Assembly (NCBI RefSeq): GCF_030408635.1
Contig: NZ_CP047198.1
Span: 2,356,001-2,420,000, forward strand
DNA length: 64,000 bases
Direction of reading: 5' to 3'
Source of the DNA: Corynebacterium coyleae
GTDB lineage: Bacteria; Actinomycetota; Actinomycetes; Mycobacteriales; Mycobacteriaceae
Under the pieces are notes generated by a model. The model was not told where the DNA came from, did not search any database, and saw only the letters and a list, made by a program, of their open reading frames with translations. Position numbers and translations under genes: made by a program. Positions 5,418 to 63,673 of this stretch are shown here, in pieces. Every line of letters starts with the position of its first letter. Position 1 is the stretch's first letter.

Positions 5418-6611
5418 ATGAGCACCTTTATTACTGGCATTTCCGAGCTCCGCACGGTCTCCGAGCTGGGCACCATTAAGAACGCAGCATTGCTTATCGA
5501 CGACGGCGTGATCGCCTGGGTCGGCCCCGCCGACGAAGCCCCCGCGGAAGCAGCAAACGCCGCCGAAACCGTCGATGTTGGCGGGCGCGCAGTCCTGCCC
5601 GGCTGGGTAGATTCCCACTCCCACATGGTTTTCGACGGCAACCGCGCCGAAGAGTTCGAGGCCCGCATGGCCGGCGAGTCCTACGCCGCCGGCGGCATCG
5701 CCGTGACCATGGAGGCAACCCGCTCCGCAGGCGAGGAGCGCCTGGATAAGTTGGTGGCGGAGCGCGTCGCCGCAGGCCATGCGGGCGGCACCACCACCTT
5801 TGAGACCAAAACCGGCTACGGCCTGAACGTCGAGTCCGAGGCAGAGGCCGCACGCGTGGCCGCCCGCCACGTGGACGAGGTGACGTTCCTCGGCGCACAC
5901 CTGGTCCCGCCGGGGGCGGACGCTGACGAATACATCGACGAGGTCGTCGGCCCGATGCTGGATGCGGTGAAGGACCACGTGCAGTGGATCGACGTGTTCT
6001 GCGAGCGCGGAGCGTTTAACGAGGAGCAGTCCCGCCGCGTCCTCGAGGCCGGCAAAAAGGTTGGCCTGGGTGTGCGCGTGCACGGCAACCAGCTTGGGCA
6101 GGGCCCGGGCGTGAAGCTTGCGGTGGAGATGGGCGCGGCCAGCGTGGACCACGTCAACTACCTCTCTGATGAGGACTTCGAGCTGCTGGCCGGTTCGGAC
6201 ACCGTAGCCACGCTGCTGCCTGCCTGCGATCTGTCCACCCGCGAGGATCTTGCACCGGGGCGCAAACTTATCGACGCCGGCGCCACCGTCGCCATCGCAT
6301 CCAACCTCAACCCCGGTACGTCGTTTACGTCCTCGATGAACTTCTGCGTGACCACCGCGGTGCTGCAGCAGTACCTCACGCTCGACGAGGCGATCGAGGC
6401 TGCCACCACCGGCGGTGCGAAGGCGCTGCGCCGTCACAACGTCGGCGACGGCAAGGACCCGCAGGGCCGCCCGGCCAAGGGCACGCTGGTGCCCGGCGCG
6501 GCCGCCGACCTGCACATCCTGGATGCAGAAAACGCCATCAACCTGGCCTACCGCCCAGGCATGCCGATTACGTGGAAGACCTGGGTGGCAGGCCAGAAGG
6601 TCTACGGCTAA
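5418..6611 (+). CDS. hutI: Imidazolonepropionase
   Basis: 397 residues; a metal-dependent amidohydrolase opening the imidazolone ring of imidazolone-5-propionate to formimidoyl-glutamate. Visible motifs are the metal-binding HxH in DSHSHMVFDGNRAEEF (about residues 66-80), FETKTGYGL, the third metal histidine in VRVHGNQLGQGPG, SVDHVNYL, ATLLPACDL and IASNLNPGTSF. An AAGAAAGG ribosome site precedes the ATG. It lies downstream of hutU in the same direction but after a hairpin. Its stop overlaps the convergent ABC ATPase gene by 4 bases. One exact copy of the dispersed 12-mer (5492) sits near the start as Leu-Ile-Asp-Asp. Confidence 0.97.
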   Translation: MSTFITGISELRTVSELGTIKNAALLIDDGVIAWVGPADEAPAEAANAAETVDVGGRAVLPGWVDSHSHMVFDGNRAEEFEARMAGESYAAGGIAVTMEATRSAGEERLDKLVAERVAAGHAGGTTTFETKTGYGLNVESEAEAARVAARHVDEVTFLGAHLVPPGADADEYIDEVVGPMLDAVKDHVQWIDVFCERGAFNEEQSRRVLEAGKKVGLGVRVHGNQLGQGPGVKLAVEMGAASVDHVNYLSDEDFELLAGSDTVATLLPACDLSTREDLAPGRKLIDAGATVAIASNLNPGTSFTSSMNFCVTTAVLQQYLTLDEAIEAATTGGAKALRRHNVGDGKDPQGRPAKGTLVPGAAADLHILDAENAINLAYRPGMPITWKTWVAGQKVYG

Positions 6612-8278
6612 ACGCTGCCTTCTGCGCGCGAGGCGAACAACGCCTCGCGCCGCGCTGCCTGCTCGACCGGATCAGGCACGGGCAGCGAACCGACGAGGCG
6701 CTGCGTGTAGGCCTGCTGCGGGTTCGCCATAACGTCCTTGCCATAGCCGCATTCGACCAGGTCACCGTGGTAGAGCACGCCGACGGTGTGGGAGACCATG
6801 TCCACCACGGCCAGGTCGTGGCTGATGAACAGGGCCGCGAACCCGAGGTCGCGCTGCAGCGATTGGAACAGGTCCAGCACCACCGCTTGGACGGAGACGT
6901 CCAGGGCGGAGGTGGGCTCGTCGGCAATGAGCAGCTCCGGGTCGAGCACAAGGCCGCGGGCGAGCGAGACGCGCTGGCGCTGACCACCCGACAACTCGTG
7001 CGGGTAGCGCGACGCGAACGAACTCGGCAGTTCAACCGCCTCGAGCAGTTCCGCCGCGCGCTGCTTGCGTTCCTTCGCGGATACATCGGAGTTGACCACG
7101 AGTGGCTCGGTGATGCACTCCTCCACCGTGAAATACGGGTTGAAGGAGGTCGCTGGGTCCTGGAACACGAAGCCGACGCGCTTGCGCAGTTCCCGTAGTT
7201 CGGCCGCGCGGATGCCGTTGAGTTCCTTGCCTAGCACCTTCAGTGATCCACCGGTGACCTTCTCCAGGCCCACCATGGACCTACCAATGGTGGTCTTGCC
7301 GGAACCAGACTCACCCACCAGGCCGAACACTTCGCCCTTGTGGATCTGGAAGGACACACCTTTCACCGCGGTAAACGACGGCGCTCCGAGGCGACCCGGG
7401 TAGGTCACCTCCAAACCGTCTGCTTCCACCACGGGTGTGGTGATGCGCATCGCCTCGAGTTCCGCCGCCGGCGTGATCACGCTGAGCGACTTCGTGCCCA
7501 GTCGCGGCACCGCACCCAGGAGTTTCTTGGTGTAGTCCTCGCGCGGGTTGGCAAACAGTTCGCGCACCGGGGCGCGCTCAATGATCTTGCCGTGGTACAT
7601 CACGGCCACCGAGTCAGCCAGGTCCGCGACCACACCCATGTTGTGGGTGATGATGATGATCGAGGTGCCGCGCTCGTCGCGAAGCTTGCGCAAGAGCTGC
7701 AGAATCTCCGCCTGCACGGTTACGTCCAGGGCGGTGGTTGGCTCGTCGGCAACGATGGTGTTCGCGCCGAGTTCCACCGCCATGGCGATCATGATGCGCT
7801 GCTTCTGACCACCCGAGAACTCGTGCGGGTAGCGGTTGATACGCTTCTCCGGCTCAGGGATACCAACCGCGCGAAGTGCTTCGACGCAACGTGCCTTGGC
7901 TTCCTTCTTCGAGATCTTCGGGTTGTGCGCCTTGAGCCCTTCCGCCATCTGCCACCAGATGGGGAACACCGGGTTCATTGCGCTCGACGGCTCCTGGAAG
8001 ATCATGGACACGTCGCGCCCGCGCATCTTGCGCAGTTCGTCGTGGTTCATGACGGTGACGTCGTTGCCCTCAACGAGCACCGCGCCCTTGGACACGGCGG
8101 TGTCGCCGAGCAGGCCGAGCACGGATCGCGCGGTAACCGTCTTGCCGGAGCCGGACTCGCCGACCAGCGCAAGAATCTCACCCGGCTCGACCTCGAGGTT
8201 CACGCCCTTGACGGCGTGCACGAACCCAGCGTCGGTATTAAACCCGACGTGGAGGTCCTGAATGTCTACGCGGTTCAT
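6608..8278 (-). CDS. Fused double ATPase of a peptide/nickel-type ABC importer (DppD-DppF-like)
   Basis: 556 residues with two complete ABC domains in tandem. The first has Walker A GESGSGKT at residues 40-47, signature FSGGQKQRI and Walker B ADEPTTALD. The second has Walker A GESGSGKTT near residue 322, signature LSGGQRQRVSLARG and ADEPTSALD. Such DppD-DppF fusions energise oligopeptide, nickel or glutathione importers from the cytoplasmic face. It is the last gene of a four-gene minus-strand operon and overlaps the preceding permease by 4 bases. Its 3' end overlaps hutI by 4 bases. An inverted repeat (6626-6650, 10-bp arms) lies within its last codons and could act as a terminator. Confidence 0.93.
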   Translation of the reverse strand: MNRVDIQDLHVGFNTDAGFVHAVKGVNLEVEPGEILALVGESGSGKTVTARSVLGLLGDTAVSKGAVLVEGNDVTVMNHDELRKMRGRDVSMIFQEPSSAMNPVFPIWWQMAEGLKAHNPKISKKEAKARCVEALRAVGIPEPEKRINRYPHEFSGGQKQRIMIAMAVELGANTIVADEPTTALDVTVQAEILQLLRKLRDERGTSIIIITHNMGVVADLADSVAVMYHGKIIERAPVRELFANPREDYTKKLLGAVPRLGTKSLSVITPAAELEAMRITTPVVEADGLEVTYPGRLGAPSFTAVKGVSFQIHKGEVFGLVGESGSGKTTIGRSMVGLEKVTGGSLKVLGKELNGIRAAELRELRKRVGFVFQDPATSFNPYFTVEECITEPLVVNSDVSAKERKQRAAELLEAVELPSSFASRYPHELSGGQRQRVSLARGLVLDPELLIADEPTSALDVSVQAVVLDLFQSLQRDLGFAALFISHDLAVVDMVSHTVGVLYHGDLVECGYGKDVMANPQQAYTQRLVGSLPVPDPVEQAARREALFASRAEGSV

Positions 8279-9222
8279 GCCGCTACCTCCTCAAACTGGT
8301 CGCCGTCTTTCGCTTTTGCTTTACGACGAACACGCAACCGCGGATCATTCAAATCATTCAACGACTCACCAACGAGTGTGATACCCAGCACCGCCAGCAC
8401 GATGGCCAGGCCCGGGAACAGCGCAGTCCACCAGATGCCGGAGGTGACGTCCGAAACCGCACGGTTGAGGTCGTATCCCCACTCAGCGGCGGAGGTCGGC
8501 TCGATACCGAAACCGATAAAGCCCAGGCCCGCAAGGGTGAGGATGGCCTCCGACGCGTTAAGCGTGAAGATCAGCGGCAGGGTGCGGGTGGCGTTGCGGA
8601 AGATGTGCACCGCCATGATGCGCCAGTGGGATGCACCGACGACCATCGCGGATTCCACGAACGGTTCCGACTTCAACCGCATCGTCTCCGCACGGATGAC
8701 GCGGAAGTATTGCGGGATGAACACCACCGTGATCGAGATTGCCGCCGCGGCGATACCGCCGAGCGCGCTGGACTTACCGCCGGTCAGCGCGATCGACATG
8801 ACAATCGCCAACAGCAGCGACGGGAAGGCGTACACAGCGTCGGCGATCATCACCAGAATCCTGTCGAGCCAGCCACCGACGTAACCGGAGATCAAACCCA
8901 GCAGCACACCGAGAATGATCGACATCAGCACGGACGCGACGATGACCAGCACCGCGGTGCGGGTACCCCACACCACGCGCGAGAACACGTCGAACCCTGC
9001 GACGGTCGTGCCCCAGATGTGTTCGGCCGACGGTGCTTGCTGGGTGCCGAACGCGCCCGCGTCGTCGCCAGTCTGCGACCAGGTGTACGGGGCGATCAGT
9101 GGCGCGAAGATTGCCGTGAGTAGCAGCCCGGCGGTGAGCACCAGGCCGAGGATGAGCATGAACCGCTGCAAACCGGCGGAACGGATGACGTCCTTCACCA
9201 ATGGGAGTTTCTTCCAGTTCAT
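8275..9222 (-). CDS. ABC transporter permease (DppC/OppC family)
   Basis: 315 residues, with an N-terminal cytoplasmic stretch and about six membrane segments. The DppC-type N-terminal domain LTAGLLLTAIFAPLIAPY is followed by a permease core with the EAA-like loop VESAMVVGASHWRIMAVHIFRNA, which contacts the ATPase. It forms the second half of the transmembrane channel with the adjacent DppB-like protein. It overlaps its upstream partner by a single base and the downstream ATPase gene by 4, indicating translational coupling. Substrate not predictable. Confidence 0.92.
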   Translation of the reverse strand: MNWKKLPLVKDVIRSAGLQRFMLILGLVLTAGLLLTAIFAPLIAPYTWSQTGDDAGAFGTQQAPSAEHIWGTTVAGFDVFSRVVWGTRTAVLVIVASVLMSIILGVLLGLISGYVGGWLDRILVMIADAVYAFPSLLLAIVMSIALTGGKSSALGGIAAAAISITVVFIPQYFRVIRAETMRLKSEPFVESAMVVGASHWRIMAVHIFRNATRTLPLIFTLNASEAILTLAGLGFIGFGIEPTSAAEWGYDLNRAVSDVTSGIWWTALFPGLAIVLAVLGITLVGESLNDLNDPRLRVRRKAKAKDGDQFEEVAA

Positions 9223-10313: not shown

Positions 10314-11957
10314 TTACTTGGTAATCGGGCCGAGGAAGAGCATGAACGAGGAGTCCAGAACAACGCCCTCGACGTCCTTGCCAACGATGGCGAACTGCTT
10401 GCCCTGCAGCAGCGGCACGGTGGACAGTTCGTCTGCCATGTAGTCCTGGATCTCGCCGATCTTCTTGTCGCGAGCATCGTGGTCCGGCTCCGTTGCGGAT
10501 TCACGGATCATGGTGTCAACCTTCTCGTCTTCGAAGTGGTTGCCCAGGAAGTTGTTCAGGGTGAAGAACGGGGTCAGGTAGTTGTCGGAATCCGGGAAGT
10601 CCGGGAACCAACCCAGCTGGTAGAGCGGGTAGACGTCGTTGGTGCGGTCCTTGGCGTACTGGACCCACTCGGTGGACTGCAGGTCGACCGTGAACAGGCC
10701 GTCTGCTTCCAGCTGCGACTTGATTGCCGCGTACTCGTCACCGGAGGACGGACCGTAGTGGTCCGGGTTGTACTGCAGTGCGATGTTCACCGGGGTTTCA
10801 ACGCCGGCATCCTCGAGGATCTTCTTCGCCTTCTCAGCGTCCGGCTTACCGTCTGCCTGCAGGTACTTGTCCTTCACAGCCTCGTTCGCGCCACGCATGG
10901 ATTCCGGAACAACGGAGTACAGCGGTGCGAAGGTGTCCTTGTACACGTTGGTGGCCAGCGCCGGACGGTCGATCGACGCTGCGATTGCCTGACGTACAGC
11001 CTTCGCCTTCGCCGGGTCAGCGTTGTCGGCCTTCGCGCCGTACGGCATGGTGTCGAAGTTGAAGACCATGTAGCGGATCTCGCCGCCCGGACCTTCGACG
11101 ACCTTCACGTTGTCGTCGTTACGCAGATCGTCGATGTCCGTTGCGGACAGGGAACGGTATGCGACGTCGATGTTGTTCTTCTGCACGTCGAGCTTCATGT
11201 TCGACGCGTCGGCGTAGTACTTGACGTTCACACCGTCGTTCGCTGCGGTGCCCATGAGGCCCTTGTAGTCAGCGCGCGGGGAGTAGGCGATGAGCTGGTT
11301 CTCGTTGAAGTCGCTAATCGAGTACTGGCCGGCAAACGGCTTGCCAGCAACAACGTCGGCGTTCTCCAGGACCTTGTCAGCCGGGAATACATCCTCATCG
11401 ACGATCGGGCTCACCGGGGAGTTCAGCACGAACGGGAAGGTCTGGTCGTTGCCTTCCTTGAGCTTGAACACAACGGTGGTGTCGTCCGGAGCCTCGACCG
11501 AATCAAGGTTGGCCAGCATGGAGGCCGGGCCGTTCGGATCGTCGATAGCAATCTGGCGGTCGAACGTGAACTTCACATCGGACGAGGTCAGGTCGTTGCC
11601 GTTTTCGAACTTCAGGCCTTCCTTCAGCTTCACCGTGTACTCGGTGGGGCTGGTGAACTCAGCAGACTCAGCCAGCGACGGCACCGGCTCGGCGTCGAGT
11701 GCGCCCTGCGGGGTTTCCAGCAGGAAGCCGTACACCTGGCGCATGACGTTGTAGCTGCCGTTGTCGTACGACCCGGCCGGGTCGAGTTTCGTGATCTTGT
11801 CGGTGGTGCCGACGGTGATCACGCCGTCCCCTGCCGGTGCATCCGCTGCCTCGTTGGAGTCAGATTCGGTGGATGCACATGCGGTCGTCAGCGCGCCGCA
11901 CGCGATAAGGGCAAGTGCCGACTTGAGCAGCTTTGCCCGTCCTTTCGAAGAGGACAT
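10314..11957 (-). CDS. ABC transporter substrate-binding lipoprotein (family 5, peptide/nickel type)
   Basis: 547 residues. The N-terminus has basic residues, a hydrophobic stretch and cysteines at ALIACGALTTACAS, consistent with a lipoprotein signal (the second Cys in TTAC is the more likely acylation site). The mature part is a family-5 solute-binding protein (LDPAGSYDNGSYNVMRQVYGFL, the usual TPAEYTVKLKEGLKF-like region, YPLYQLGWFPDFPDSDNYL near the C-terminus). The last motif is common in actinobacterial DppA/OppA-like proteins. It is the first gene of the importer operon. An AAGGAGA ribosome site precedes the ATG. Confidence 0.92.
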   Translation of the reverse strand: MSSSKGRAKLLKSALALIACGALTTACASTESDSNEAADAPAGDGVITVGTTDKITKLDPAGSYDNGSYNVMRQVYGFLLETPQGALDAEPVPSLAESAEFTSPTEYTVKLKEGLKFENGNDLTSSDVKFTFDRQIAIDDPNGPASMLANLDSVEAPDDTTVVFKLKEGNDQTFPFVLNSPVSPIVDEDVFPADKVLENADVVAGKPFAGQYSISDFNENQLIAYSPRADYKGLMGTAANDGVNVKYYADASNMKLDVQKNNIDVAYRSLSATDIDDLRNDDNVKVVEGPGGEIRYMVFNFDTMPYGAKADNADPAKAKAVRQAIAASIDRPALATNVYKDTFAPLYSVVPESMRGANEAVKDKYLQADGKPDAEKAKKILEDAGVETPVNIALQYNPDHYGPSSGDEYAAIKSQLEADGLFTVDLQSTEWVQYAKDRTNDVYPLYQLGWFPDFPDSDNYLTPFFTLNNFLGNHFEDEKVDTMIRESATEPDHDARDKKIGEIQDYMADELSTVPLLQGKQFAIVGKDVEGVVLDSSFMLFLGPITK

Positions 11958-13139: not shown

Positions 13140-13895
13140 CTAGTCAGACACAACAGCGGTGTGGTTGCCAAAGATTTCCAGGGCGAGATCGGGCAGGTCT
13201 GTTGCCATCACATCCACGCCTTTGTCGGCGCACCATTGCATGCCACGTGGTGTGTTTACGGTCCAGGTGTACGTCTTCAAACCGCGGTATCCCAGCAGCT
13301 CAGTGCGCAGTTGCAGGTGCTGCAGCGCAGGGCCCACACCGTAGGGGCGGGAGAACATGCGGTTCTTTTTGTTCCACTTCATCTCGCGCAGGCGGAACAG
13401 GTAGAAGGTTTCCAGTTCGGGCGCCATGTCGGTGAAGTAGCGCACCGCGCGGTGGGAGAAGGACGCGAGGTGGATGTTCGGGGAGTCGTCGAGACGCGCG
13501 TACCTGAGCATGCGGAAGGTCTGTTCGTCCACCTCAGGCCCGTGCGGGGTGGGGTGTTTGGTCTCTATGTAGATGTGTTTGTCGGGGTAGTCCTGCATGA
13601 GTTCGAGCAGTTCTTCCAGCAGCATGATCCGCTGCGGGTCCTCTTTGGTGCCGACGTTCAGTTCGCGCAGGTCGTTGTAGTCGTTGAAGTCGATGCGCCC
13701 ACGCACGCCCGCGGTGCGGATCAGGGTGGGGTCGTGGAAGACGACAACTCGCCCGTCACGGGTGAGCCGTACATCGCATTCGATGCCGTGGATGGGAAGT
13801 TCGAGCGCCTTTTCAAACGCGCGCTGTGTGAGTTCTGGGTAGGATCCGGAAAATCCCCGGTGGGCGACGATTTTTGGTGCGGTGTTGTGGCTCAC
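13140..13895 (-). CDS. Glycerophosphodiester phosphodiesterase family protein
   Basis: 251 residues from the GTG at 13895 (MSHNTAPKIVAHRGFSG). GDPD signatures are present: VAHRGFSGSYPELTQRAFEKAL, GIECDVRLTRDGRVVVFHDPTLIRTAGVRG (metal Glu/Asp and general-acid His) and IYIETKHPT. The C-terminal ends TYTWTVNTPRGMQWCADKGVDVMATDLPD. No signal peptide is visible, so it is probably cytoplasmic; it would split glycerophosphodiesters into glycerol-3-phosphate and an alcohol. The open frame extends far upstream but is antisense to the divergent hydrolase gene, so the start is set at the conserved N-terminus. The divergent neighbour starts 64 bases away. Confidence 0.9.
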   Translation of the reverse strand: MSHNTAPKIVAHRGFSGSYPELTQRAFEKALELPIHGIECDVRLTRDGRVVVFHDPTLIRTAGVRGRIDFNDYNDLRELNVGTKEDPQRIMLLEELLELMQDYPDKHIYIETKHPTPHGPEVDEQTFRMLRYARLDDSPNIHLASFSHRAVRYFTDMAPELETFYLFRLREMKWNKKNRMFSRPYGVGPALQHLQLRTELLGYRGLKTYTWTVNTPRGMQWCADKGVDVMATDLPDLALEIFGNHTAVVSD

Positions 13896-13959: not shown

Positions 13960-15885
13960 GTGCTTATCGACGACACCCGCAACGCCATCCGCAACATCAG
14001 CGCGAAACTGCCCAACGCAGTATGGCGTGCGCGCCAACGGTTCTCGTTCAGCCGCGACGGTTGGCTGGCGGTACCGATCGGCGCGGTGCAGGTGTTGGGG
14101 GACCTCTCCCCCGCGATCCGCCTGCTTGGCCCGCACCGCCTGCCGCCCGCGTTTCGCTCTGGTTTGGTCGGCGCGGAGGTGGCCACGTGGGGTGCGGTGT
14201 CTCCGTCGTTGCTGCCACACAACTGGTGGGCGACCGCGGCGAACGTGGCGGTACTCCAGGGCATCGGCCACGGGGTTGCGACGGGCCTTGCGCGCGCGTT
14301 CGGGCCGACGACCCCACCAACCGGGACTGGACGTTTGCCCCGCCCAGCGCGTGTTGCGATGACCGCGACCACGGTTGCGGTGTTCGCCACCTCGATCCGC
14401 CGGCGCATACGGCTGAAGCGCCTGGTGCAAAGCGACGACACGTTCCGGGCTTCTGACCTGGCGGGTGGCGTGATGCTGGGCACGCTCGGATACGGCACGG
14501 TGCTGCTGGTCGGCGATGCGATCCAGTCCTTCATCGATGCACTCAACGAGCTGCTGGGCAAGAAGTTGCCGCCGGTGGCGTCGTGGCCAATCGCCATCGT
14601 GGGCGGTGGTGTGCTGCTGGTGTTGGTAAGCGACCGGGTGGTGCTGCGTCGGTTCCTCTCCAATGCGAGCCGGCGCGCCTTCGAGTTGGACCGTGAGTAC
14701 ATGCGTGGCGCGGTGCAGCCGCATCGTCCGCAGCGTTCGGGTTCGCCGGAGTCTTCGGTGGATTGGAACCTCATGGGCCGCCAGGGTCGCGCGGTGGTCT
14801 CCGGTGGCCCGCGAAAGGAGGACATTGAACGTGTCCTCGGCCGGGAGGCGCACGAGCCGATCCGTGTCTTCGTCGGCCTGGATCTGGAGCGTGAGCAGGA
14901 CGAGCCGGACTTTGAGCAGATGGCGCGCCTGGCCATTAAGGAGATGTACCGCACCGGCGCGTTTGAGCGCTCCCACATCGCGGTGATGTCGGCGGCCGGC
15001 ACGGGCTGGATCAACGACTTCCACACGTCCGGGTTCGAGTTTGTCACCGGCGGCGATAGTGCGATCGTCGCTATGCAGTACTCGTATCTGCCCTCGGCGT
15101 ATTCGTATCTTGCGGACCGCACGAACCCGGTGCGCTCCTCGCGCATGTTGATCGAGTACATCCTGCGCGAACTCGAGAACATCCCCGAATCCTCCCGCCC
15201 GAAACTCTTCGTCGGCGGCGAATCGCTCGGCGCCTACGGGGTTTCCGACGCATTCGAGTCCGTCGAGGAACTCTTCGCACTCACCTCCGGCGCCGTGTTC
15301 ACCGGCACGCCCGGCTTCGCCCGCAACCACAGCGAGTTGACCAAGAAGCGCCAACAAGGTTCTCCGGAGCGCCTTCCGCTTATCGACGACGGCCTCCACG
15401 TCCGCTTCACCGCCCACCCCGACCACCTCATCCACGACTTCCAAGGCGACGCCTACGCGCAGAAGTGGGAGGCCCCGCGCGTCGTGTTCGCCCAACACGC
15501 CTCGGATCCGGTGGTGTGGTGGGACCACAGCCTGGCGTGGCGCCGGCCGGACTGGCTGAAGGAGCCGGGCTCGCGCGGGGTTCCGGCACCGAAAAAACAG
15601 CACTTGGACGCGCTGCACACCATGCGTTGGATGCCGCTGGTGACGTACTGGCAGATTGCCATCGACCAGTTGTCCTCCAAGGATTACCCGTCGCCCCACG
15701 GGCACAACTACCACGAGGAAACCGTGGCGTATTGGAACGGCGTCATCCACGGCGAGCGTTCAGACGAGGATTCAAACGCCGCGCTTTCCAAGGACGAGAT
15801 CAAGCGCGTGGCCGCCTGGATCCACAACGACGCCACCAAACTGCGCCGCCCCGTCGGAGGGTTCCCCTCCAAGCACGGCTACTAA
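13960..15885 (+). CDS. Membrane alpha/beta-hydrolase (Abhydrolase_9 family)
   Basis: 641 residues from the GTG at 13960. The N-terminal ~260 residues hold several hydrophobic segments (SGLVGAEVATWGAVSPSLL, GVMLGTLGYGTVLLVGDAI, WPIAIVGGGVLLVLVSDRVVLRR). The C-terminal half is the actinobacterial Abhydrolase_9 domain: RVFVGLDLEREQDEPDFEQMA, a nucleophile elbow FVGGESLGAYG, and PVVWWDHSLAWRRPDWL. The likely role is a membrane-anchored serine hydrolase/esterase; its substrate is unknown. The start codon itself forms part of an exact dispersed 12-mer (13962), and a second exact copy lies at 15378. The stop overlaps the convergent msrA by 4 bases. The start is uncertain because the frame is open from 13882. 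Confidence 0.85.
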   Translation: MLIDDTRNAIRNISAKLPNAVWRARQRFSFSRDGWLAVPIGAVQVLGDLSPAIRLLGPHRLPPAFRSGLVGAEVATWGAVSPSLLPHNWWATAANVAVLQGIGHGVATGLARAFGPTTPPTGTGRLPRPARVAMTATTVAVFATSIRRRIRLKRLVQSDDTFRASDLAGGVMLGTLGYGTVLLVGDAIQSFIDALNELLGKKLPPVASWPIAIVGGGVLLVLVSDRVVLRRFLSNASRRAFELDREYMRGAVQPHRPQRSGSPESSVDWNLMGRQGRAVVSGGPRKEDIERVLGREAHEPIRVFVGLDLEREQDEPDFEQMARLAIKEMYRTGAFERSHIAVMSAAGTGWINDFHTSGFEFVTGGDSAIVAMQYSYLPSAYSYLADRTNPVRSSRMLIEYILRELENIPESSRPKLFVGGESLGAYGVSDAFESVEELFALTSGAVFTGTPGFARNHSELTKKRQQGSPERLPLIDDGLHVRFTAHPDHLIHDFQGDAYAQKWEAPRVVFAQHASDPVVWWDHSLAWRRPDWLKEPGSRGVPAPKKQHLDALHTMRWMPLVTYWQIAIDQLSSKDYPSPHGHNYHEETVAYWNGVIHGERSDEDSNAALSKDEIKRVAAWIHNDATKLRRPVGGFPSKHGY

Positions 15886-16523
15886 ATGCCGCAGGCCACG
15901 CCGGTGGAGTGGTGCGGGCAGTAGCCGTTGGGCACCTTGTGCAGGTACTGCTGGTGCTCCTCCTCAGCGAGGTAGTACGGCGCGCCGGCGCGCACTTCGG
16001 TGGTGATGTCGCCGTAGCCAGCGCTGTTCAGGTCCGCCTCGTACTGGCGGATCCACTCACGGATCTGCTCGGCCTCTTCCTCGGTGTCGGTGTAGAAGGC
16101 GGAGCGGTACTGGGTGCCCACGTCGTTGCCTTGGCGGTAGCCCTGGGTTGGGTCATGCGCCTCGAGTGCAGTCTTAACGATCTCCTTCAGCGAGATCACC
16201 TCCGGGTCGTAGACCACCTCCACCAACTCCACGTGGTTGGTCTGGCCGGAGCAGACTTCGCGGTAGGTGGGGTTCGGGGTAATGCCGCCGCCGTAGCCGA
16301 CCGAGGTCGATTCAACACCGTCGAGCTGCCAGAACATCTTCTCCGCACCCCAGAAGCAGCCAATCCCGATGAGGATGCGCTTCTGCCCCTCACGCCACGG
16401 GCCGGTAATCGGGGTGGTCAGCACGGCGTGCGGGCGGGGGTTGGCAAGGACGGGTTCGGGGCGGCCGGGGAGGGCCGTGGTGTCGTCGACAAGCTTTGGC
16501 TCAGGTGCGAAAAGAAATCCCAT
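15882..16523 (-). CDS. msrA: Peptide methionine-S-sulfoxide reductase MsrA
   Basis: 213 residues from the ATG at 16523 (MGFLFAPEPKLVDD); a GTG 8 codons upstream is possible. MsrA reduces methionine-S-sulfoxide in oxidised proteins. The catalytic motif GCFWGAEKMFWQLDGV is intact, with GYGGGITPNPTYREVCSGQTNHVE and the downstream HQQYLHKVPNGYCPHHSTGVAC, which carries resolving cysteines. Its ~45-residue N-terminal extension is typical of actinobacterial forms. It is divergent from sodA, another oxidative-defence gene, with 89 bases between the starts. The 3' end overlaps the hydrolase gene by 4 bases. Confidence 0.95.
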   Translation of the reverse strand: MGFLFAPEPKLVDDTTALPGRPEPVLANPRPHAVLTTPITGPWREGQKRILIGIGCFWGAEKMFWQLDGVESTSVGYGGGITPNPTYREVCSGQTNHVELVEVVYDPEVISLKEIVKTALEAHDPTQGYRQGNDVGTQYRSAFYTDTEEEAEQIREWIRQYEADLNSAGYGDITTEVRAGAPYYLAEEEHQQYLHKVPNGYCPHHSTGVACGI

Positions 16524-18593: not shown

Positions 18594-20108
18594 CTAAACC
18601 TGGCCCAATCGTGGCACGCCCGGCGCGCCGGCGTCGAGGAAGTCGCGCACGGCACGGGTGGCCAGGCAGTCGTCTTCGTTGTAGCGGATGAGCATGTCGC
18701 GCGCTTCGATATCGCCAAGCCTTCCCGCGCGACGCAGTGCCACAGAGCGTTCCCCATCCACGTCGTCATCCTCCCACGCGAAGCCGACCACAGGCCCGAG
18801 TACTTTCAGGCCGAGCCCATCCGTGCCGACGAGCGAACGTCGCACCAGGGCGAACACGTCGACCCAGTCCTCAGACGCGATGAACTCCGCAACCTCCGCC
18901 TCGTCCACCGAGGCAAACCTGCGTGCCGACGACCGCAGCCAATGGTTCTCCCCACCCGCCGCATAACAGTAAGCGCGGAAGGTCTGGCCAGCCTCGCGGG
19001 CGTCGCGGCGCCGCTGCATCAGCCACGACCAGAACGCGTTGAAGTTCGCCTCCTCGGCCGCACCACCAACGTCTTCCCAGGTGACAAACGCGCGGTACTG
19101 TTCACCGTCGTACGCACCCCACAGGTAGGCGCCCTGGTCGAGGTAGGCCTCCATGTCGATGTCGATCTCCACGTCGGCGCGCGGCACCGGCGCCAACTTC
19201 TCCCGCCGCAGCACGGGGATACCGGCGCGCCAGGCGCGGGCGATGGCTGCGGGTTCGGCGGGGCCGTCGTCGATAAGCGACTGCACCGTGGTGATCCCCT
19301 CCTCGCGCCACACGTCCCCGCGGCCGCCCGGCAGGAGCAGCGAAATGTCGTCAAGTTCCTCCAGGCGCGGCTTGCACAGCGGCCAAAACCGGCAGGATGC
19401 GCACTGTTTCATCCGCTTCGGCTCGTCCGGGATCTCCACCGCAAGCGCCTCACGCAACTGCGGGACGTAGCGGGCGGGGTCGACAACGTACACGCGCGCC
19501 CGATCCTGCCCGACCGCACCGCCGCGACCATCCGCGAGCGTGCCCAACAGCACATGCGCCATGGCCAGCCGGTAACCATCAACCGTGTGGTGGCGGCCCT
19601 TCGCCTTCACCGTCATCGCCCGGCCCAGCCCAAGCCGGCCGGTGGGCACCATCAACATCTCGTTCGTCGGATGCTCGCGCGCCACCCGGTGGTTCGAGAT
19701 AATCACCGGCGCGTACCCGCGTTCGGTGCGCACCAGCACGTCGACCTCCGCAAGGGTGGGCACCCCGTCAACCTCCCCCTCGAGCGCCGCGTTGGTGATC
19801 AGGTGTGCGCGACGCTTCAGCGCCAATCGCGTCTCGACGATCCGCGCATCCACCCCCGCACCCGGATCGATATCAATGCGCGTAAAGGCCTTTCCGCGGC
19901 CATCCCCAACCGCACGCCTCACCGGCAACGCATCGAACACAGCAGCACGACCCGCATCAATCTGCGGTTGGCGCAGCAGCGCATCCGGCAACTCAGGCGT
20001 ATCCGGGTGCGCGCGTCGCTGACGCAGCCGGTAGCGGCACCCGACAAGATCGGACGCCCGCACCGGCTGCGCTGGTTGGGCAGTCCCGCCCACGGTGGGA
20101 GGTTTCAC
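18594..20108 (-). CDS. TM0106-family RecB-like nuclease
   Basis: 504 residues from the GTG at 20108 (MKPPTVGG); the frame is open upstream. The N-terminal half shows a RecB/Cas4-like arrangement: VRASDLVGCRYRLRQRRAHPD, EGEVDGVPTLAEVDVLVR (PD-(D/E)xK-like core) and a cysteine cluster CASCRFWPLC. The C-terminal half is an RNase H-like exonuclease domain ending in RYNEDDCLATRAVRDFL, the YNEDD signature. This domain order is that of the TM0106-type putative nucleases; the cellular role is not established. An exact dispersed 12-mer lies at 19267. It is convergent with the MFS gene and divergent from the DUF6474-like gene. Confidence 0.82.
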   Translation of the reverse strand: MKPPTVGGTAQPAQPVRASDLVGCRYRLRQRRAHPDTPELPDALLRQPQIDAGRAAVFDALPVRRAVGDGRGKAFTRIDIDPGAGVDARIVETRLALKRRAHLITNAALEGEVDGVPTLAEVDVLVRTERGYAPVIISNHRVAREHPTNEMLMVPTGRLGLGRAMTVKAKGRHHTVDGYRLAMAHVLLGTLADGRGGAVGQDRARVYVVDPARYVPQLREALAVEIPDEPKRMKQCASCRFWPLCKPRLEELDDISLLLPGGRGDVWREEGITTVQSLIDDGPAEPAAIARAWRAGIPVLRREKLAPVPRADVEIDIDMEAYLDQGAYLWGAYDGEQYRAFVTWEDVGGAAEEANFNAFWSWLMQRRRDAREAGQTFRAYCYAAGGENHWLRSSARRFASVDEAEVAEFIASEDWVDVFALVRRSLVGTDGLGLKVLGPVVGFAWEDDDVDGERSVALRRAGRLGDIEARDMLIRYNEDDCLATRAVRDFLDAGAPGVPRLGQV

Positions 20109-20199: not shown

Positions 20200-20835
20200 A
20201 TGGGTGTCCTGGGCATCATCCGCAAAGCACGCCGCAACGTCAAGGCCGAAATCAAGGCCGCTGAGGTGCACGCACGCCAACTGGCCAAGGATCAGGCGAA
20301 GGCCGACAAGCGCACCGCCGAACTGCTGGACAAGGCAGAAAAGCGTCTGCTGAAGGAAGAGAAGAAGGGCCTGAAGCGCAAGCGCAAGCACGAAAAGGAC
20401 CTGGCTAAGGCTCACCTGAAGCGCATCGAGGAAGCCGGCATTACCAAGAAGAAGGCCAAGCAGTGGACCGGCGCCGCCCGCGTCCTCATCCCCATCGCGC
20501 TGCCGCTGATCTACAAGGCGCTGACCTCCCTGCAGCAGAACCAGGTGAACGCCAACGCAGCAGGCCTCGGCCTGTCCGCAGGTGATCTGGCGCGCCACTC
20601 CGGCCGCGGCGCCGAGCTCAAGGCCCGCATCGAGGCGATCCGCGCAAGCGTGTCCGGCTCCGGCGAGTTGACCGAGAGCTTCAAGCGTGACGCGAGCGTG
20701 CGTCTCGACGAGCTCGAGCAGGCCGTCCGCAACGCCGAACACGCCAACCCGGAGCAGCGCCGTCTGGCTCACAACTCCATCGACGAGGACCTCAACGTCC
20801 TCGCCGGCGATGTCCAGGAGCGCCTCTCCCGCTAG
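20200..20835 (+). CDS. DUF6474-like coiled-coil protein
   Basis: 211 residues from the ATG at 20200, behind GCAAGGAG. The first ~95 residues are a highly charged Lys/Glu/Ala-rich helix or coiled coil (RKARRNVKAEIKAAEVHARQ, KAEKRLLKEEKKGLKRKRKH). A hydrophobic segment follows, ARVLIPIALPLIYKAL (about residues 95-110), then a second helical part ending EQRRLAHNSIDEDLNVLAGD. I associate it with the corynebacterial DUF6474 family; function unknown. Its stop abuts the convergent response-regulator gene. Confidence 0.7.
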   Translation: MGVLGIIRKARRNVKAEIKAAEVHARQLAKDQAKADKRTAELLDKAEKRLLKEEKKGLKRKRKHEKDLAKAHLKRIEEAGITKKKAKQWTGAARVLIPIALPLIYKALTSLQQNQVNANAAGLGLSAGDLARHSGRGAELKARIEAIRASVSGSGELTESFKRDASVRLDELEQAVRNAEHANPEQRRLAHNSIDEDLNVLAGDVQERLSR

Positions 20836-25880: not shown

Positions 25881-25893
25881 CAAAGCAGATTGC

Positions 25894-26163
25894 TTATCGA
25901 CGACTACCTGTCACCTTATTCACAATCCACAGCAGAATCACCGCACCGATCAGGCAGGTCAGGAAACTAAAGAAGCGTCCCCCGCCTTCCACATCAAAGC
26001 CGAGCAGGCCAAGCAGCCAGCCGCCGATGAAACCACCGATAACACCGACCAGAATGTTCAGGCCGATGCCCATCTGTGCGTCACGGTTCTGCATCTTGGA
26101 TGCGATCCAGCCAGCAAGGCCGCCGATAATAATCCAGCCGATAAAACCAAGTGTTGGAGTCAT
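25894..26163 (-). CDS. GlsB/YeaQ/YmgE family membrane protein
   Basis: 89 residues with three glycine-rich hydrophobic segments (LGFIGWIIIGGLAGWIASKM, IGLNILVGVIGGFIGGWLLGLLGF, FFSFLTCLIGAVILLWIVNKV), the pattern of the transglycosylase-associated/GlsB family. These small membrane proteins are often stress-induced; mechanism unknown. It lies downstream of a universal stress protein gene on the same strand. Its TAA stop falls inside an exact copy of the dispersed 12-mer (25892), the only exact copy read antisense to a gene. Confidence 0.88.
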   Translation of the reverse strand: MTPTLGFIGWIIIGGLAGWIASKMQNRDAQMGIGLNILVGVIGGFIGGWLLGLLGFDVEGGGRFFSFLTCLIGAVILLWIVNKVTGSRR

Positions 26164-29090: not shown

Positions 29091-29147
29091 ATCTTGGGGG
29101 TTGATGTGATCGTGATGATCAGTATTGAGATGTCATTGTGACAATGG

Positions 29148-29180: not shown

Positions 29181-29221
29181 AACAGTGTTTCGTTTTGTGT
29201 TTGGTTTGTTGAAAAACCGGG

Positions 29222-32300
<3,079 letters not shown>

Positions 32301-38537: not shown

Positions 38538-38555
38538 TCGCTTTACGACGACACC

Positions 38556-50289: not shown

Positions 50290-50963
50290 CCAAACTCCCC
50301 TTCTGCCCAGTCCGCCATGAACTCGGCGATGCCGTGGGGGTCCGCGAGGAAGTCGCGCATCGCCCGAAACGCCAGCGTGTCCTCTGCGGCGAGGTTGCGC
50401 TCCACGCCGTCGTCGCTGATCTCGACGATCTCCGCACCCGGGATCGCCGCCACAATGGGCGAATGCGTGACGACGACTACCTGCGCCCCCACTTCACCCA
50501 ACGCATGCAACTGCGCCAGTAGGGCCATTTGGGCGACGGGGGACAGGCCGGACTCGGGCTCGTCGAGAAGATACAGCGCGTTGGGGATCAGCCGCGATGT
50601 CAGTTCGAGGACCGATTCGCCGTGGGAGCGCCCGCCGAATTCGGTGATGCGCGTATGTGTTTCGCCGCGCAGGAAGTAGCCGACTTTCGCCCGCGGGCCG
50701 GTGGTCAGGGTGAGCACGCCGTAAAGCGGGTCGTGGGCGCCCGCCTTCTCCACACCCCACGTGCCGCCTTCCAACGTGAACCCCCAGGCCCGCGCCATTC
50801 CCTCCAGCAGCGTGGACTTGCCCACCCCGTTGCCGCCAGTAATCACCGTAATCGGCCGCCTAAAGGCAAACCCGAACTCGGCGACGTGCGCGATGGCCGG
50901 GGTCTCCACAGTCCACGGCGGTGCGGCTTGGGCGTCGACGTCGACGCGTTGGATGAACATCAT
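50286..50963 (-). CDS. Predicted ATPase (COG3910-like), second of a tandem pair
   Basis: 225 residues. ABC-type ATPase without membrane segments: Walker A GGNGVGKST (about residue 44), a FLRGETHTRI segment, signature SHGESVLELTSR, Walker B LYLLDEPESGLSP and switch VVVTHSPIVAAIPGAEIVEI. This order is that of the COG3910 predicted ATPases (SMC/Rad50-like small proteins), whose function is not known to me. It overlaps its paralogue upstream by 4 bases. The C-terminal ends RDFLADPHGIAEFMADWAE. Confidence 0.85.
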   Translation of the reverse strand: MMFIQRVDVDAQAAPPWTVETPAIAHVAEFGFAFRRPITVITGGNGVGKSTLLEGMARAWGFTLEGGTWGVEKAGAHDPLYGVLTLTTGPRAKVGYFLRGETHTRITEFGGRSHGESVLELTSRLIPNALYLLDEPESGLSPVAQMALLAQLHALGEVGAQVVVVTHSPIVAAIPGAEIVEISDDGVERNLAAEDTLAFRAMRDFLADPHGIAEFMADWAEGEFG

Positions 50964-51646
50964 GGTCCCACCAGGTAGCGGGCGGTGCCGGTTGGGTCGT
51001 TGATGAATTCGCGGGTGGCGGTGACGGGCTCGCAGTCGTCGAAAAGCACAGGCTCGAGGTCGGGAACATGCAGGATGCGGGCGTCTGGGATGGCAAGGAG
51101 CACAGGCGAATGCGTTGCGACGACCACCTGTGCCCCACGCCGCGCGAGCACCGTCAGCAGGCCGAGGAGTTCGAGTTGGGAGAAGATGGAGAGGCCGTCT
51201 TCGGGCTCGTCGAGAAGAATTAGCGAGTCCGGGCCGAAGCGGGTGCGCGCCAGGTCCATGATGCCCTGGCCGTGGCTGCGTCTGGTGAGGCCTACAAGCG
51301 GGTCGGCGGGCCCCAGGCTCTCGTGGTATTCCGCAAGGTCAAGGTATGTTTCGCCGCGCAGGAAGTAGACGTCGCGGGGGTTTTCGCGGCGCGTCAGCGT
51401 GAGCGAGCGGTGCAGGGCCGAATGGTCTGCGGCGGTAAAGCGCGCGTGGCGCGAACCGCCAGCAGCGTTGGCGCCCATGGCCACGGCGATCGCCTCGACG
51501 AGCGTGGATTTTCCGGAACCGTTATCGCCGGTCAACAGCGTGACCTGGCCTAACTCGAGCGGCGTTTGTTGGAGGGAGTGCACCACCGACAGATCACGCG
51601 CGTAGCCCTGGACAGGAGCATCAATGCGCACACGGGTAAGAAACAT
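50960..51646 (-). CDS. Predicted ATPase (COG3910-like), first of a tandem pair
   Basis: 228 residues from the ATG at 51646 (an upstream ATG 7 codons earlier overlaps vapC). Walker A GDNGSGKST, FLRGETYLDL, signature SHGQGIMDLAR, Walker B LILLDEPEDGLSI, and switch VVVATHSPVLLAIPDARILHV. Clearly paralogous to the next gene in every motif. Four bases separate it from the vapC stop, and the next ATPase gene overlaps it by 4, so vapB-vapC-ATPase-ATPase look like one transcript. Confidence 0.85.
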   Translation of the reverse strand: MFLTRVRIDAPVQGYARDLSVVHSLQQTPLELGQVTLLTGDNGSGKSTLVEAIAVAMGANAAGGSRHARFTAADHSALHRSLTLTRRENPRDVYFLRGETYLDLAEYHESLGPADPLVGLTRRSHGQGIMDLARTRFGPDSLILLDEPEDGLSIFSQLELLGLLTVLARRGAQVVVATHSPVLLAIPDARILHVPDLEPVLFDDCEPVTATREFINDPTGTARYLVGP

Positions 51647-53271: not shown

Positions 53272-53335
53272 ACAAGTGCTGTTGTCGTTGGACTGCTGCG
53301 TGCTGTTCTGACGCGCAGTCGTCGTCAAGCGGTGC

Positions 53336-56684: not shown

Positions 56685-58213
56685 GGTTGCGTACTCACCG
56701 CCTCCGCCTCAGCCTCGGCGGGCTTAACGGGCTCGGGCGTGGGCTCGTCGATAAGCACAGGCTCTTTCCACTGCGCAGGCAGCGACATCAGCGGGTCGTG
56801 GCCGTTGTGCGCGTCGCGGACCTTGTCCGGGCGCTTGCCGAGCATTTGCTTGACGACGAGCACCATCACCGCCACGATAAACGCATCGCGCGCCAGGATG
56901 AAGATGTCCAGGAACCAACCCGGCACACCCATGTTGTCGTCGCCCATCATGTGCCACATCAGCACCGGCCAAACCATCATGTCCGCCACCATCCAGGACA
57001 GCAGCAGACGCCAGTACGGCAGTGCGAGGACCGCGGGAACCACAAACCACAGAGAGTACTGCGGGCTCCATACCTTGTTAAACAGCAGGAAGAAGCCGAC
57101 GATGAGCACGATCAGTTCCGCAATGCGCGGGGTTTGCGGCGCACGCAGGCCGAGGATGAGGACGAACAGGCAGCCGAGCAGGAACAGGATCAGGGTGACG
57201 GCGTTGAGGATCACCGGGGCGCCCTCACCGGAGTCGAAGCCGGCCCACCCGAACTCGCGGGAGAGCACCGCGTAGATGGTGGTCCACTCCCAGCCGCGGT
57301 CGGTGTTGAGGCGGTTGAACTCGCTCCATGCGTCTGGGTAACGCAGGTACACCGGCGCGTTGACGGCGATCCAGGTGATGGCGGTGGCGCCGACCATCTT
57401 GAAGAACGGCACGAGGTCACGCTTGCGGATCGCCACAGTGAGGTACGCGCCGAGGATGAACAGCGGCCACAGTTTGAACGCGGTGCCCAAACCGACGAGC
57501 ACACCGGCCAGCCACCACTTGCGGTTGCGCGCCGCGAGCATCGCGGCGACGGCGAAGAAGATCGAAGGGATGTCCCAGTTGGTAAACGCGTGGACGATCA
57601 GCAGCGGCGAACCGGCGACGAGCAGCGTGTCCCAGATGCGGTTGCCGGCAAGTTCCGCGACCATGCGGATGGTGATCACCCAGATGATGGACATCAGCAG
57701 TGCGGTGACGTAGAAGTACCAGCCGGATTCCGGCAGGAAGCTATCAGTCAGGAAGTAGGTACCGCGCGCGATCCAGGCGCTGAGCTGCTGGAACAGGCCA
57801 GCGAGCACCGGGTATTCCATGTAGCGGGTCAGGTCGTCTTCTACCCACGAGTAGGCGTAGACAAAGCCCGGCTGGTCCAGACCGCGTGCTCCGTAGAGCG
57901 GGATGATGTCGTTGTAGCAGGCAGCGACGAACTGGCGGTTGCCGTCCCAGTTGAGCTGCATGATGCCGTTGTCGTCCAGTTTGCCGCCAGCGCAGCGCGA
58001 CTTCTGTAGTGCGCCGAAGGACAAGAAGATGTATGCGACGGCGATGATGGCGCGCAGCGGCGTCCAGAACCGGGCGCGGCCGATCTGGGCGAAGCGGCCC
58101 ATTGGTCCGCCGAGGTAGTTCACCCAGCCGCGTGCCACCGGTTCGGTTTTGCCGGGCTGGACGCGGTCGGCCGGGTCCGGCCATGTGACGGTTGTTTGAT
58201 CAGTCTGAGACAT
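56681..58213 (-). CDS. GT87/DUF2029 family membrane glycosyltransferase
   Basis: 510 residues with about ten membrane helices and the loop-1 acidic region (AYSWVEDDLTRYMEYPVL) typical of GT-C glycosyltransferases using polyprenyl-phosphate sugars. The C-terminal tail is cytoplasmic and Glu/Pro-rich. By position beside PBP1A, as Rv0051 beside ponA1 in Mycobacterium tuberculosis, it is likely the orthologue; its product may be an envelope mannosylated lipid or polysaccharide. An exact 12-mer (56745) encodes Leu-Ile-Asp-Glu in the tail. It starts 4 bases after the PBP stop. Confidence 0.85.
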   Translation of the reverse strand: MSQTDQTTVTWPDPADRVQPGKTEPVARGWVNYLGGPMGRFAQIGRARFWTPLRAIIAVAYIFLSFGALQKSRCAGGKLDDNGIMQLNWDGNRQFVAACYNDIIPLYGARGLDQPGFVYAYSWVEDDLTRYMEYPVLAGLFQQLSAWIARGTYFLTDSFLPESGWYFYVTALLMSIIWVITIRMVAELAGNRIWDTLLVAGSPLLIVHAFTNWDIPSIFFAVAAMLAARNRKWWLAGVLVGLGTAFKLWPLFILGAYLTVAIRKRDLVPFFKMVGATAITWIAVNAPVYLRYPDAWSEFNRLNTDRGWEWTTIYAVLSREFGWAGFDSGEGAPVILNAVTLILFLLGCLFVLILGLRAPQTPRIAELIVLIVGFFLLFNKVWSPQYSLWFVVPAVLALPYWRLLLSWMVADMMVWPVLMWHMMGDDNMGVPGWFLDIFILARDAFIVAVMVLVVKQMLGKRPDKVRDAHNGHDPLMSLPAQWKEPVLIDEPTPEPVKPAEAEAEAVSTQP

Positions 58214-60545: not shown

Positions 60546-60908
60546 TCACACTACTGGTACTGCAGTGACTTCCTTTAACAGATGGTTCCACTTGCAGTCG
60601 CGGCAAACCTCCACGAAGTGGACGGTGATGGGGCCGACCTCGTGCACCATGCGGTCGATTTCTTCTGCGCTGCGGGCGGTGCCGGTGCGTCGGCCGAGTT
60701 TTTCGCTGTACACCCAGGTAATCTCCCGCAGTTCGGCGCCACAGATGGGGCAGGGCCGTGGGGATGCGGTGCCGTGGTGTTCGGCGGCGGCGCGGAGGAT
60801 GAAGTCGGCGTCGCAGGCGTCGTCGATACGCATGCGCCCTGCGTTGAGCTCGCGCAATGCGTGACGACGACGCCACTCGTGCGACACCTCACCCTCATAC
60901 ACAAACAT
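60546..60908 (-). CDS. DUF5318 family protein
   Basis: 120 residues from the ATG at 60908 (MFVYEGEVSHEWRRR). Two zinc-ribbon-like cysteine pairs, RPCPICGAE and VCRDCKWNHL, with TGTARSAEEID between them. The pattern matches the DUF5318 proteins of actinobacteria (Rv0049-like). Probably metal-binding; role unknown. Divergent from the Usp gene and directly upstream of PBP1A on the same strand with 102 bases between. Confidence 0.8.
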   Translation of the reverse strand: MFVYEGEVSHEWRRRHALRELNAGRMRIDDACDADFILRAAAEHHGTASPRPCPICGAELREITWVYSEKLGRRTGTARSAEEIDRMVHEVGPITVHFVEVCRDCKWNHLLKEVTAVPVV

Positions 60909-63321: not shown

Positions 63322-63331
63322 GCCTGGCAGT

Positions 63332-63673
63332 CTACGTCGAGCGGGTCCGTTCTTTGTAGGCGTATACGTCGCGCGTGTACACGCGGCGGTGTGTACCGAC
63401 TCTGTGGCCGGGCAGTGTGCCTTCGTCGATAAGCTTGACCACGTATGGACGAGACACGTTGAGCAGGTCAGCTACCTGCTGGGTGGTCATTTCATCTTCG
63501 GGGCTGGGTGGGCGCATGAGGCGCCCCTCCGCAAGATCCTCGAGCAGATCACGGATCCAGGCAGCGGTCTGTTTGGGTAGCGTGACTTCCTCACGCTGGT
63601 CAGCTCGGGCGGCAGCAATGCCGTCGTTGAGCTGAGCCAACGCGGTCTCCACCGGCGGTTGTTGTACAGGCAT
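63332..63673 (-). CDS. Excisionase-type HTH DNA-binding protein
   Basis: 113 residues from the ATG at 63673 (MPVQQPP). A helical N-terminal part is followed by a MerR/excisionase-like winged [35 protein letters not shown] then [16 protein letters not shown]. Such proteins can be recombination directionality factors or antitoxin-like regulators paired with PIN toxins, but no PIN gene, integrase or att site is adjacent: trhO begins 10 bases downstream. An exact 12-mer at 63423 encodes Leu-Ile-Asp-Glu within the recognition region. Confidence 0.8.

Follow-up and report, generated by a model that had tools for sequence, protein, structure and literature searches.

In the available text of the papers cited here, words that mark DNA for uptake belong to the Neisseriaceae, as the DNA uptake sequence (DUS), and to the Pasteurellaceae, as the uptake signal sequence (USS). 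These words are described there as occurring about once per kb with no orientation bias, somewhat regular spacing and some close opposite-strand pairs (PMC1626085), and as scarce in newly acquired DNA and rRNA genes and accounted for by molecular drive (PMC7811141). Neisseriaceae DUS form dialects around a CTG core, are poor in genomic islands and lie one per 400-1100 bp (PMC7371117, in part), and in the accessible portion of a Haemophilus study the orientation of the USS was without effect on uptake (PMC1939737). Among actinobacteria, Micrococcus luteus depends on Flp-type pili to be transformed and carries both comEA and comEC (PMC6370729; also PMC6667448; both in part). Here we describe a 12-base word, GCTTATCGACGA, repeated in a 64,000-nucleotide stretch of Corynebacterium coyleae (the window, bases 2356001-2420000 of a genome that is a single contig of 2,508,772 bases) and across that genome. 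The word is probably the core of a candidate DUS/USS-like DNA uptake sequence of Corynebacterium, with dialects.

The word shares with DUS and USS an asymmetric sequence, a copy number in the hundreds to thousands that far exceeds expectation, equal use of both orientations, sites within genes and at still higher density between them, non-random spacing, dialects, and depletion in acquired DNA and rRNA genes, the latter a post hoc observation. Its resemblance to Neisseriaceae DUS, as far as the available text of PMC7371117 and PMC1626085 describes these, covers the asymmetric over-represented word, both orientations, coding and intergenic sites, scarcity in islands and dialects with a constant core. 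That core is CTG in Neisseriaceae and GCTT..CGA here, and the present word differs further in its Gram-positive host, its C-rich flank and an exclusion between sites on the same strand, and in being known from sequence alone. Pasteurellaceae USS likewise join a core to a biased 3' flank and fall into two subclade types, and they occur in opposite-strand pairs (PMC1626085, PMC7811141, in part), whose clear excess is confined to C. coyleae in the present data; theirs is another word, and its flank is AT-rich instead of C-rich.

A repeated word selected at the DNA level

All 11 exact copies listed in a preliminary description of the window were found, five on the forward and six on the reverse strand, and the approximately 11 one-mismatch copies reported there came to 12 in our count. 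These 23 matches with at most one mismatch compare with a mean of 0.35 and a largest value of 2 in 100 dinucleotide shuffles. Genome-wide the 12-mer occurs 199 times (104 forward, 95 reverse) and the control, the pattern read backwards, not once. For finer counts we used an 860 kb sample of the C. coyleae genome (G000; other G numbers denote congeneric genomes and L numbers loci or sampled stretches), made up of the window and 40 spaced stretches, in which a home-made gene caller placed 796 genes (88% coding). In this sample 71 exact copies were present where a third-order Markov null predicts 0.17, or about 0.5 per genome when scaled.

The 12-mer itself stood as described, but its extent had to be redrawn, as the motif tolerates any two bases in its middle and G at base 3. 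In the sample, single substitutions in CGACG (bases 7-11) occurred 0 or 1 time each, base 3 accepted G (48 copies) and base 5 accepted C, G and T (44, 36 and 20, respectively). With bases 5 and 6 freed, GCTTNNCGACGA was found 282 times (5.5 expected) and GCGTNNCGACGA 118 times (8.7 expected), and the top one of 13 comparison words with altered halves reached 4.9 times its expectation. The degenerate pattern GCTTNNCGAYG has 1234 copies in the whole genome and its control 117. Thus, the repeated word is real and larger in scale than the preliminary description stated.

The resulting motif is an asymmetric tGC(T/G)T-NN-CGACG-A-C with a C-rich 3' tail. It was derived from substitution tables and from logos by context, used in place of a position-weight expectation-maximization model that, run on the whole sample, drifted into codon periodicity. 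Logos of intergenic and antisense sites have T at -1, preceded by A/T. On the 3' side they have C at +12, +14 and +15, and from there to about +45 the sequence is rich in C and poor in G. A like tail accompanies the motif in G149, G180, G089 together with G142, G111 (weakest), G006, G053 and the named species. Upstream, GCA begins 5, 6 or 7 bases before the word at 14, 23 and 18 of 172 sites, against a background of 3.6. A hairpin or RNA structure, suggested by a consensus in which GG-N-G could pair with C-N-CC, was rejected: no consistent diagonal appeared, and stem covariation across the flanks was not consistent among 416, 141, 132 and 242 sites. The pair -7/+13 reached a z of 4.6 in the named set and was absent from the top lists of the other sets.

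In the window, GC(T/G)TNNCGACGA has 40 sites, given below with strand (+ or -) and gene context, where LID denotes the Leu-Ile-Asp reading; the rRNA operon follows.

5492..5503, +, exact word, sense LID frame
13962..13973, +, exact word, sense LID frame
15378..15389, +, exact word, sense LID frame
19267..19278, -, exact word, sense LID frame
22184..22195, -, exact word, sense LID frame
25892..25903, +, exact word, across the end of an antisense gene
34919..34930, -, exact word, sense LID frame
36627..36638, -, exact word, sense LID frame
41081..41092, +, exact word, sense LID frame
56745..56756, -, exact word, sense LID frame
63423..63434, -, exact word, sense LID frame
1557..1568, +, variant GCTTTACGACGA, sense
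3835..3846, -, variant GCGTATCGACGA, antisense
7674..7685, -, variant GCTTCGCGACGA, sense
8318..8329, +, variant GCTTTACGACGA, antisense
11113..11124, -, variant GCGTAACGACGA, sense
13486..13497, -, variant GCGTCTCGACGA, sense
16483..16494, -, variant GCTTGTCGACGA, sense
18921..18932, +, variant GCGTGCCGACGA, antisense
19829..19840, +, variant GCGTCTCGACGA, antisense
20700..20711, +, variant GCGTCTCGACGA, sense
22771..22782, +, variant GCTTAACGACGA, sense
23815..23826, -, variant GCTTTTCGACGA, antisense
26474..26485, -, variant GCTTCTCGACGA, sense
27558..27569, +, variant GCGTTTCGACGA, sense
35921..35932, +, variant GCTTTGCGACGA, antisense
36088..36099, -, variant GCTTCTCGACGA, sense
38540..38551, +, variant GCTTTACGACGA, intergenic
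41166..41177, -, variant GCTTGTCGACGA, antisense
42404..42415, +, variant GCGTATCGACGA, sense
44527..44538, +, variant GCTTTGCGACGA, sense, other frame
48255..48266, +, variant GCGTATCGACGA, antisense
50030..50041, -, variant GCTTCGCGACGA, sense
50465..50476, +, variant GCGTGACGACGA, antisense
51036..51047, -, variant GCTTTTCGACGA, sense
51112..51123, +, variant GCGTTGCGACGA, antisense
53319..53330, -, variant GCTTGACGACGA, intergenic
56848..56859, +, variant GCTTGACGACGA, antisense
60820..60831, -, variant GCGTATCGACGA, sense
60859..60870, +, variant GCGTGACGACGA, antisense
28971..34230, -, rRNA operon (5S, 23S, 16S), free of the motif, inside the window's largest gap (27558 to 34919)

The gene context reported earlier was reproduced with our own gene calls. 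Ten of the 11 exact copies are read as Leu-Ile-Asp-(Asp/Glu), the copy at 25892 reaches over the end of a gene on the opposite strand, the variants at 23815, 41166 and 48255 are antisense and the copy at 38540 is intergenic. The near-uniform spelling of this peptide also held in the larger sample, where CTT makes up 13% of Leu codons, yet 49 of the 56 LID(D/E) instances are written CTTATCGAC.

The 71 exact copies of the sample were compared with expectations from independent codons. The sense LID frame holds 40 copies where 0.22 are expected (184-fold), antisense frame 1 holds nine (0.11 expected, 83-fold), sense frame 1 three (0.002 expected; 1646-fold, from three copies) and antisense frame 0 two (under 0.001 expected; 6678-fold, from two copies); three lie at a gene end and the other two coding frames have none. 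Another 14 copies are intergenic, against 0.012 expected, so that the exact word is denser in intergenic DNA (141 per Mb) than in coding DNA (75 per Mb). The 399 sites of the degenerate motif comprise 226 in sense (6.5 expected), 125 in antisense (4.6 expected) and 48 in intergenic DNA or at gene edges, with a slightly high sense share (226/351 compared to 0.584 expected, p=0.026). Because several frames, both gene strands and intergenic DNA are all enriched, selection acts on the DNA and not on the peptide, as the preliminary description had argued, and neither peptide nor mRNA explains the word.

Placement and strand-specific spacing

The motif has a density of about 470 per Mb in the sample; for G000 the density comes to one site per 2.0 kb. 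Forward and reverse sites numbered 90 and 89 on the sampled left arm and 104 and 117 on the right, and the 41 stretches of this genome revealed no replichore orientation bias, which disfavours the translocase signal that the preliminary description had listed among possible roles. The three poorest of the 41 stretches (0, 2 and 2 sites) are a prophage, with genes for a major head protein, tape measure and endolysin, and two islands bearing insertion sequences, with several transposase genes of the IS21/IS3 kind. Together these three hold 4 sites where 30 are expected, a depletion in acquired DNA that is post hoc since the stretches were annotated because they were motif-poor. The rRNA operon, likewise free of the motif, occupies the largest motif gap of the window.

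Adjacent sites in the sample lie on opposite strands in 240 cases and on the same strand in 136, with no preference beyond 2 kb. Opposite-strand neighbours outnumber same-strand ones in nine of nine species sampled (p<0.05 in four: G000, G149, G180 and G089), and six comparison words, with few pairs each, had no such trend. When all pairs in G000 closer than 500 bp are considered, 14 are on the same strand against 47.7 expected and 61 on opposite strands against 52.4, and at 500-1500 bp the same-strand ratio is still about 0.7. The corresponding counts below 500 bp for G149, G180, G089 and G142 combined are 32 against 63.0 and 77 against 67.2. In 25 motif-bearing named loci, which are not independent because they are orthologous, pairs under 1 kb number 44 against 73.3 on the same strand and 72 against 76.3 on opposite strands. 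Three of the four sets therefore have fewer same-strand pairs closer than about 1 kb than expected, and since opposite-strand pairs are not depleted, the spacing regularity is strand-specific. At 12-100 bp, opposite-strand pairs in G000 are in excess, at 2.2 times expectation.

Avoidance of direct repeats was rejected as the cause of the exclusion, with identical 12-mers in 4 of 46 close pairs and in 33 of 480 pairs 3-10 kb apart. As a separate observation, opposite-strand pairs 250-1000 bp apart in G000 are convergent in 53 cases and divergent in 28; the corresponding numbers are 56 and 45 in four other CGACG species (weaker) and 29 and 27 in the named loci (not clear).

Distribution and dialects across Corynebacterium

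We classified 201 congeneric genomes by cut-offs chosen in this analysis, with GCTTNNCGAYG at least 3 times the reversed control as on and under 2 times as off, which gave 153 on, 42 off and 6 intermediate. Totals of the pattern range from 51 to 2032 over all genomes, from 153 to 2032 (median 1130) in on genomes and from 51 to 161 in off genomes, and counts of the exact 12-mer lie between 0 and 328. None of the 153 on genomes had a forward/reverse imbalance at p<0.01. With a CGATG call requiring at least 70%, these 153 divide into 139 of the CGACG dialect, 13 of the CGATG dialect and one mixed (G132), and GCTT-NN-CGA is common to the dialects. De novo word discovery in 13 species recovered a GCTT..CGA word in nine, as CGACG in G000, G149, G180, G089, G142 and weakly G048 and as CGATG in G111, G006 and G053; no standout word emerged from 100 kb each of G014, G066, G128 and G147.

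The named Corynebacterium loci, 34 of about 20 kb, comprise 25 on (including C. tuberculostearicum, C. kefirresidentii, C. amycolatum, C. oculi and, with CGATG, C. macginleyi), 8 off (including C. jeikeium, C. falsenii, C. glyciniphilum and C. meridianum) and one unclear. Outside the genus, 46 loci of other genera gave 21 GCTTNNCGAYG matches compared to 44 for reversed patterns, and in 199 genomes of the same order the 13-mer GCTTATCGACGAC, the only spelling searched in these genomes, stayed at chance level with 0-2 copies per genome. A scan of viral contigs with a 14-mer gave one match in each of the 80 listed of 120, which is chance-like.

Mapped onto a 59-row tree of ComEC, the on/off state has to change at least four times, and two of these changes are forced by well supported branches; here the intermediate genomes G041 and G120 were set as off, and one locus and three outgroups were unlabelled. 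The tree has a deep off clade that holds on-state C. amycolatum, and losses within the on clade; apparent cases of loss are G014 and the group of C. meridianum, G120 and G041. At codon-aligned positions in 6 to 21 genes around comEC, C. coyleae has between 0 and 8 sites in common with any one of 25 other loci, where chance gives at most 0.01; with the four species whose proteins are 72% identical, it shares 2-5 of its 16-17 sites. Sites are thus partly kept and partly replaced among species.

Two further words came to light that are set apart here. GCTAGACGAT / ATCGTCTAGC, unrelated to the main motif, is over-represented in L001-L040 of G000 (21 copies against 0.46 expected), and an 11-mer, CAAATGCTCGT / ACGAGCATTTG, is frequent in L043-L051 of G149 (14 against 0.06 expected), possibly as a local repeat.

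A candidate uptake sequence and its alternatives

Among the roles proposed in the preliminary description, an uptake word fits best, and roles in chromosome architecture or methylation are less likely. Under the mechanism we propose, tGC(T/G)T-NN-CGACG-A-C plus the C-rich tail would be bound at the cell surface by a DNA receptor belonging to the competence machinery, for which a minor Tad/Flp pilus subunit or ComEA is the most plausible candidate, and ComEC would then bring a single strand into the cell. DNA of the same species would be taken up preferentially when it carries the word, and its recombination would let the word build up wherever tolerated, a molecular drive that could yield copy numbers from hundreds to about two thousand, spread over both strands. 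Lineages would vary in spelling (CGACG or CGATG), and some would have lost or never had the word. We infer that the word is active in a single orientation, which may determine the strand that is taken in. The broader proposal, of a genus-wide, dialect-forming and polar self-recognition code for uptake in which word orientation decides the strand or direction imported and each strand is tagged separately at kb intervals, is more tentative, and we would give it somewhat less than even chances. Such polarity would explain why exclusion holds between same-strand sites only.

The genes that uptake would call for are present in C. coyleae. A comEA gene (SLBB and HhH domains) adjoins comEC, dprA was found, and a tad locus contains tadA (T2SSE) together with a gene for a DUF4244 pilin. 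Among named genomes, this ComEC is matched best by C. sp. HMSC074A01, C. gottingense, C. sp. MSK008 and further Corynebacterium, in keeping with the genus. The tad-locus neighbours we take, from their position, to be ssd, tadB, tadC and TadE-like genes; of two small tad-locus proteins scanned, one had a sub-threshold TadE/G-like match and one no match. Matches to one or both TadE-like genes are missing in G048, G014, G039 and G181. In one TadE-like gene of the tad locus (L123:9247-9558), whose protein begins LLIDD, an exact word lies at the start as called. The gene set (Tad/Flp pilus, ComEA, ComEC) is of the same kind as in the actinobacterium M. luteus (PMC6370729, PMC6667448, in part), where, unlike here, transformation is known in addition to the genes; the available text of PMC6667448 does not use the term 'uptake sequence'.

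ComEC is about 335-568 aa long in the main motif-bearing clade (which includes G014, G041 and G120) and 547-697 aa in the motif-free clade. We do not take length as a correlate of the word and treat it as a lineage difference, because in the three ComEC proteins scanned Pfam recognised no domain other than Competence.

Several observations weigh against an uptake sequence. The competence genes do not separate on from off genomes: comEC is in 50 of 50 (27 on, 2 intermediate, 21 off), the T2SSE/TadA family in 198 of 201, tadA with the DUF4244 pilin in each of the 20 loci fetched (10 on including the weak G132, 3 intermediate, 7 off) and dprA in 20 of 20, so that none of these, nor PDDEXK_1, serves as a predictor of the word. 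In motif-bearing G114 the ComEC match is in two pieces (contig C13, 122007-122782), perhaps through recent loss or assembly error, and no candidate receptor was singled out. Same-strand exclusion is absent in G111, G006, G053 and G048 combined (20 pairs against 19.5 expected below 500 bp), and close opposite-strand pairs are without excess outside G000 (0.98 in G149, G180, G089 and G142; 0.72 in the named loci). At one per 2.0 kb the motif is sparser than the words of known systems, for which the available text gives a site roughly every kb (PMC1626085) or every 400-1100 bp (PMC7371117). Same-strand exclusion would also not be predicted from Haemophilus, as orientation had no effect on uptake there (PMC1939737, in part). 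Lastly, we found no paper showing transformation or uptake in Corynebacterium in the open-access literature, a scope that excludes most subscription journals and all bioRxiv preprints.

Foremost among the alternatives, though unlikely, is a Chi-like recombination signal, read in one orientation by an AdnAB-type helicase-nuclease during break repair, with each orientation selected independently at kb spacing. Chi sites, too, are short oriented words in many copies; the strand-specific exclusion fits a one-orientation reader, and PDDEXK_1 proteins are in 40 of 40 genomes, in C. coyleae as a pair of neighbouring open frames, 1030 and 1140 aa long, in the manner of AdnAB. These proteins, however, occur with or without the word (19 on, 3 intermediate, 18 off), none of 40 genomes has RecC, and 42 of 201 congeners lack the word. 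Known Chi sites have 5-8 bases, and E. coli Chi and KOPS are orientation-biased along replichores, whereas the present word is longer, with flanks in addition to 12 positions of which about ten are fixed, and has no such bias. Beside the AdnAB-like gene, a PDDEXK_1 match (G000:C1:627055-627729, with matches in G180, G142, G054 and G164) is listed as having in-frame TGA in its open frame.

The binding site of a nucleoid-associated or chromosome-architecture protein is improbable. The asymmetric motif is protein-sized, at about 12 bp plus flanks, and it is spread along the chromosome and scarce in acquired DNA; nevertheless, parS, matS and KOPS form regional patterns and none like them was seen in the 41 stretches, dialects and presence or absence vary inside one genus, and strand-specific exclusion would have no obvious reason.

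We consider three further readings very unlikely. Multiple start sites of chromosomal transfer between cells (oriT/bom-like), for which mycobacterial distributive conjugal transfer offers a model, would suit a strand-specific, asymmetric, genus-limited word with C-rich DNA downstream on one strand, but the copy number is far above that of any known oriT. An element acting in RNA (a terminator, a Rho or small RNA site, or an mRNA processing site) would fit the same-strand stretch 3' of the word that is rich in C and poor in G, the same-strand exclusion and the slight sense excess; against it, antisense sites are nearly as enriched as sense sites and the flanks lack consistent base-pair covariation. 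Some methyltransferase or restriction sites are similarly bipartite and asymmetric, but such sites are normally not over-represented hundreds of times, and this role leaves the same-strand spacing unexplained. That the word is the ordinary preferred spelling of Leu-Ile-Asp-Asp/Glu can practically be dismissed, since although 40 of 71 exact copies lie in that frame, the excess extends to other frames and to intergenic DNA, where density is higher, and CTT is an uncommon Leu codon elsewhere.

In the same open-access literature we found no paper on this word or on an uptake sequence in Corynebacterium and no description of a self-recognition code for uptake in Gram-positive bacteria. The 12-mer occurs in two papers, and the 12-mer or one of its 10-/11-base parts in 28; among the 25 of these that were listed, the sole Corynebacterium paper (PMC6475665) has its match in a primer, in the portion available, and in the available main text of a transformation review (PMC12236230) Corynebacterium and Actinobacteria are absent. 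If the proposed uptake function is true, it would represent an independent origin of sequence-specific DNA uptake in a Gram-positive actinobacterium, and the on/off states and dialects over 201 species of one genus would form a natural series for receptor finding and for tests of molecular drive. The strand-specific spacing makes uptake polarity directly testable. An uptake role would also point to natural transformability in many corynebacteria of skin and mucosa, which would open a route to their genetics.

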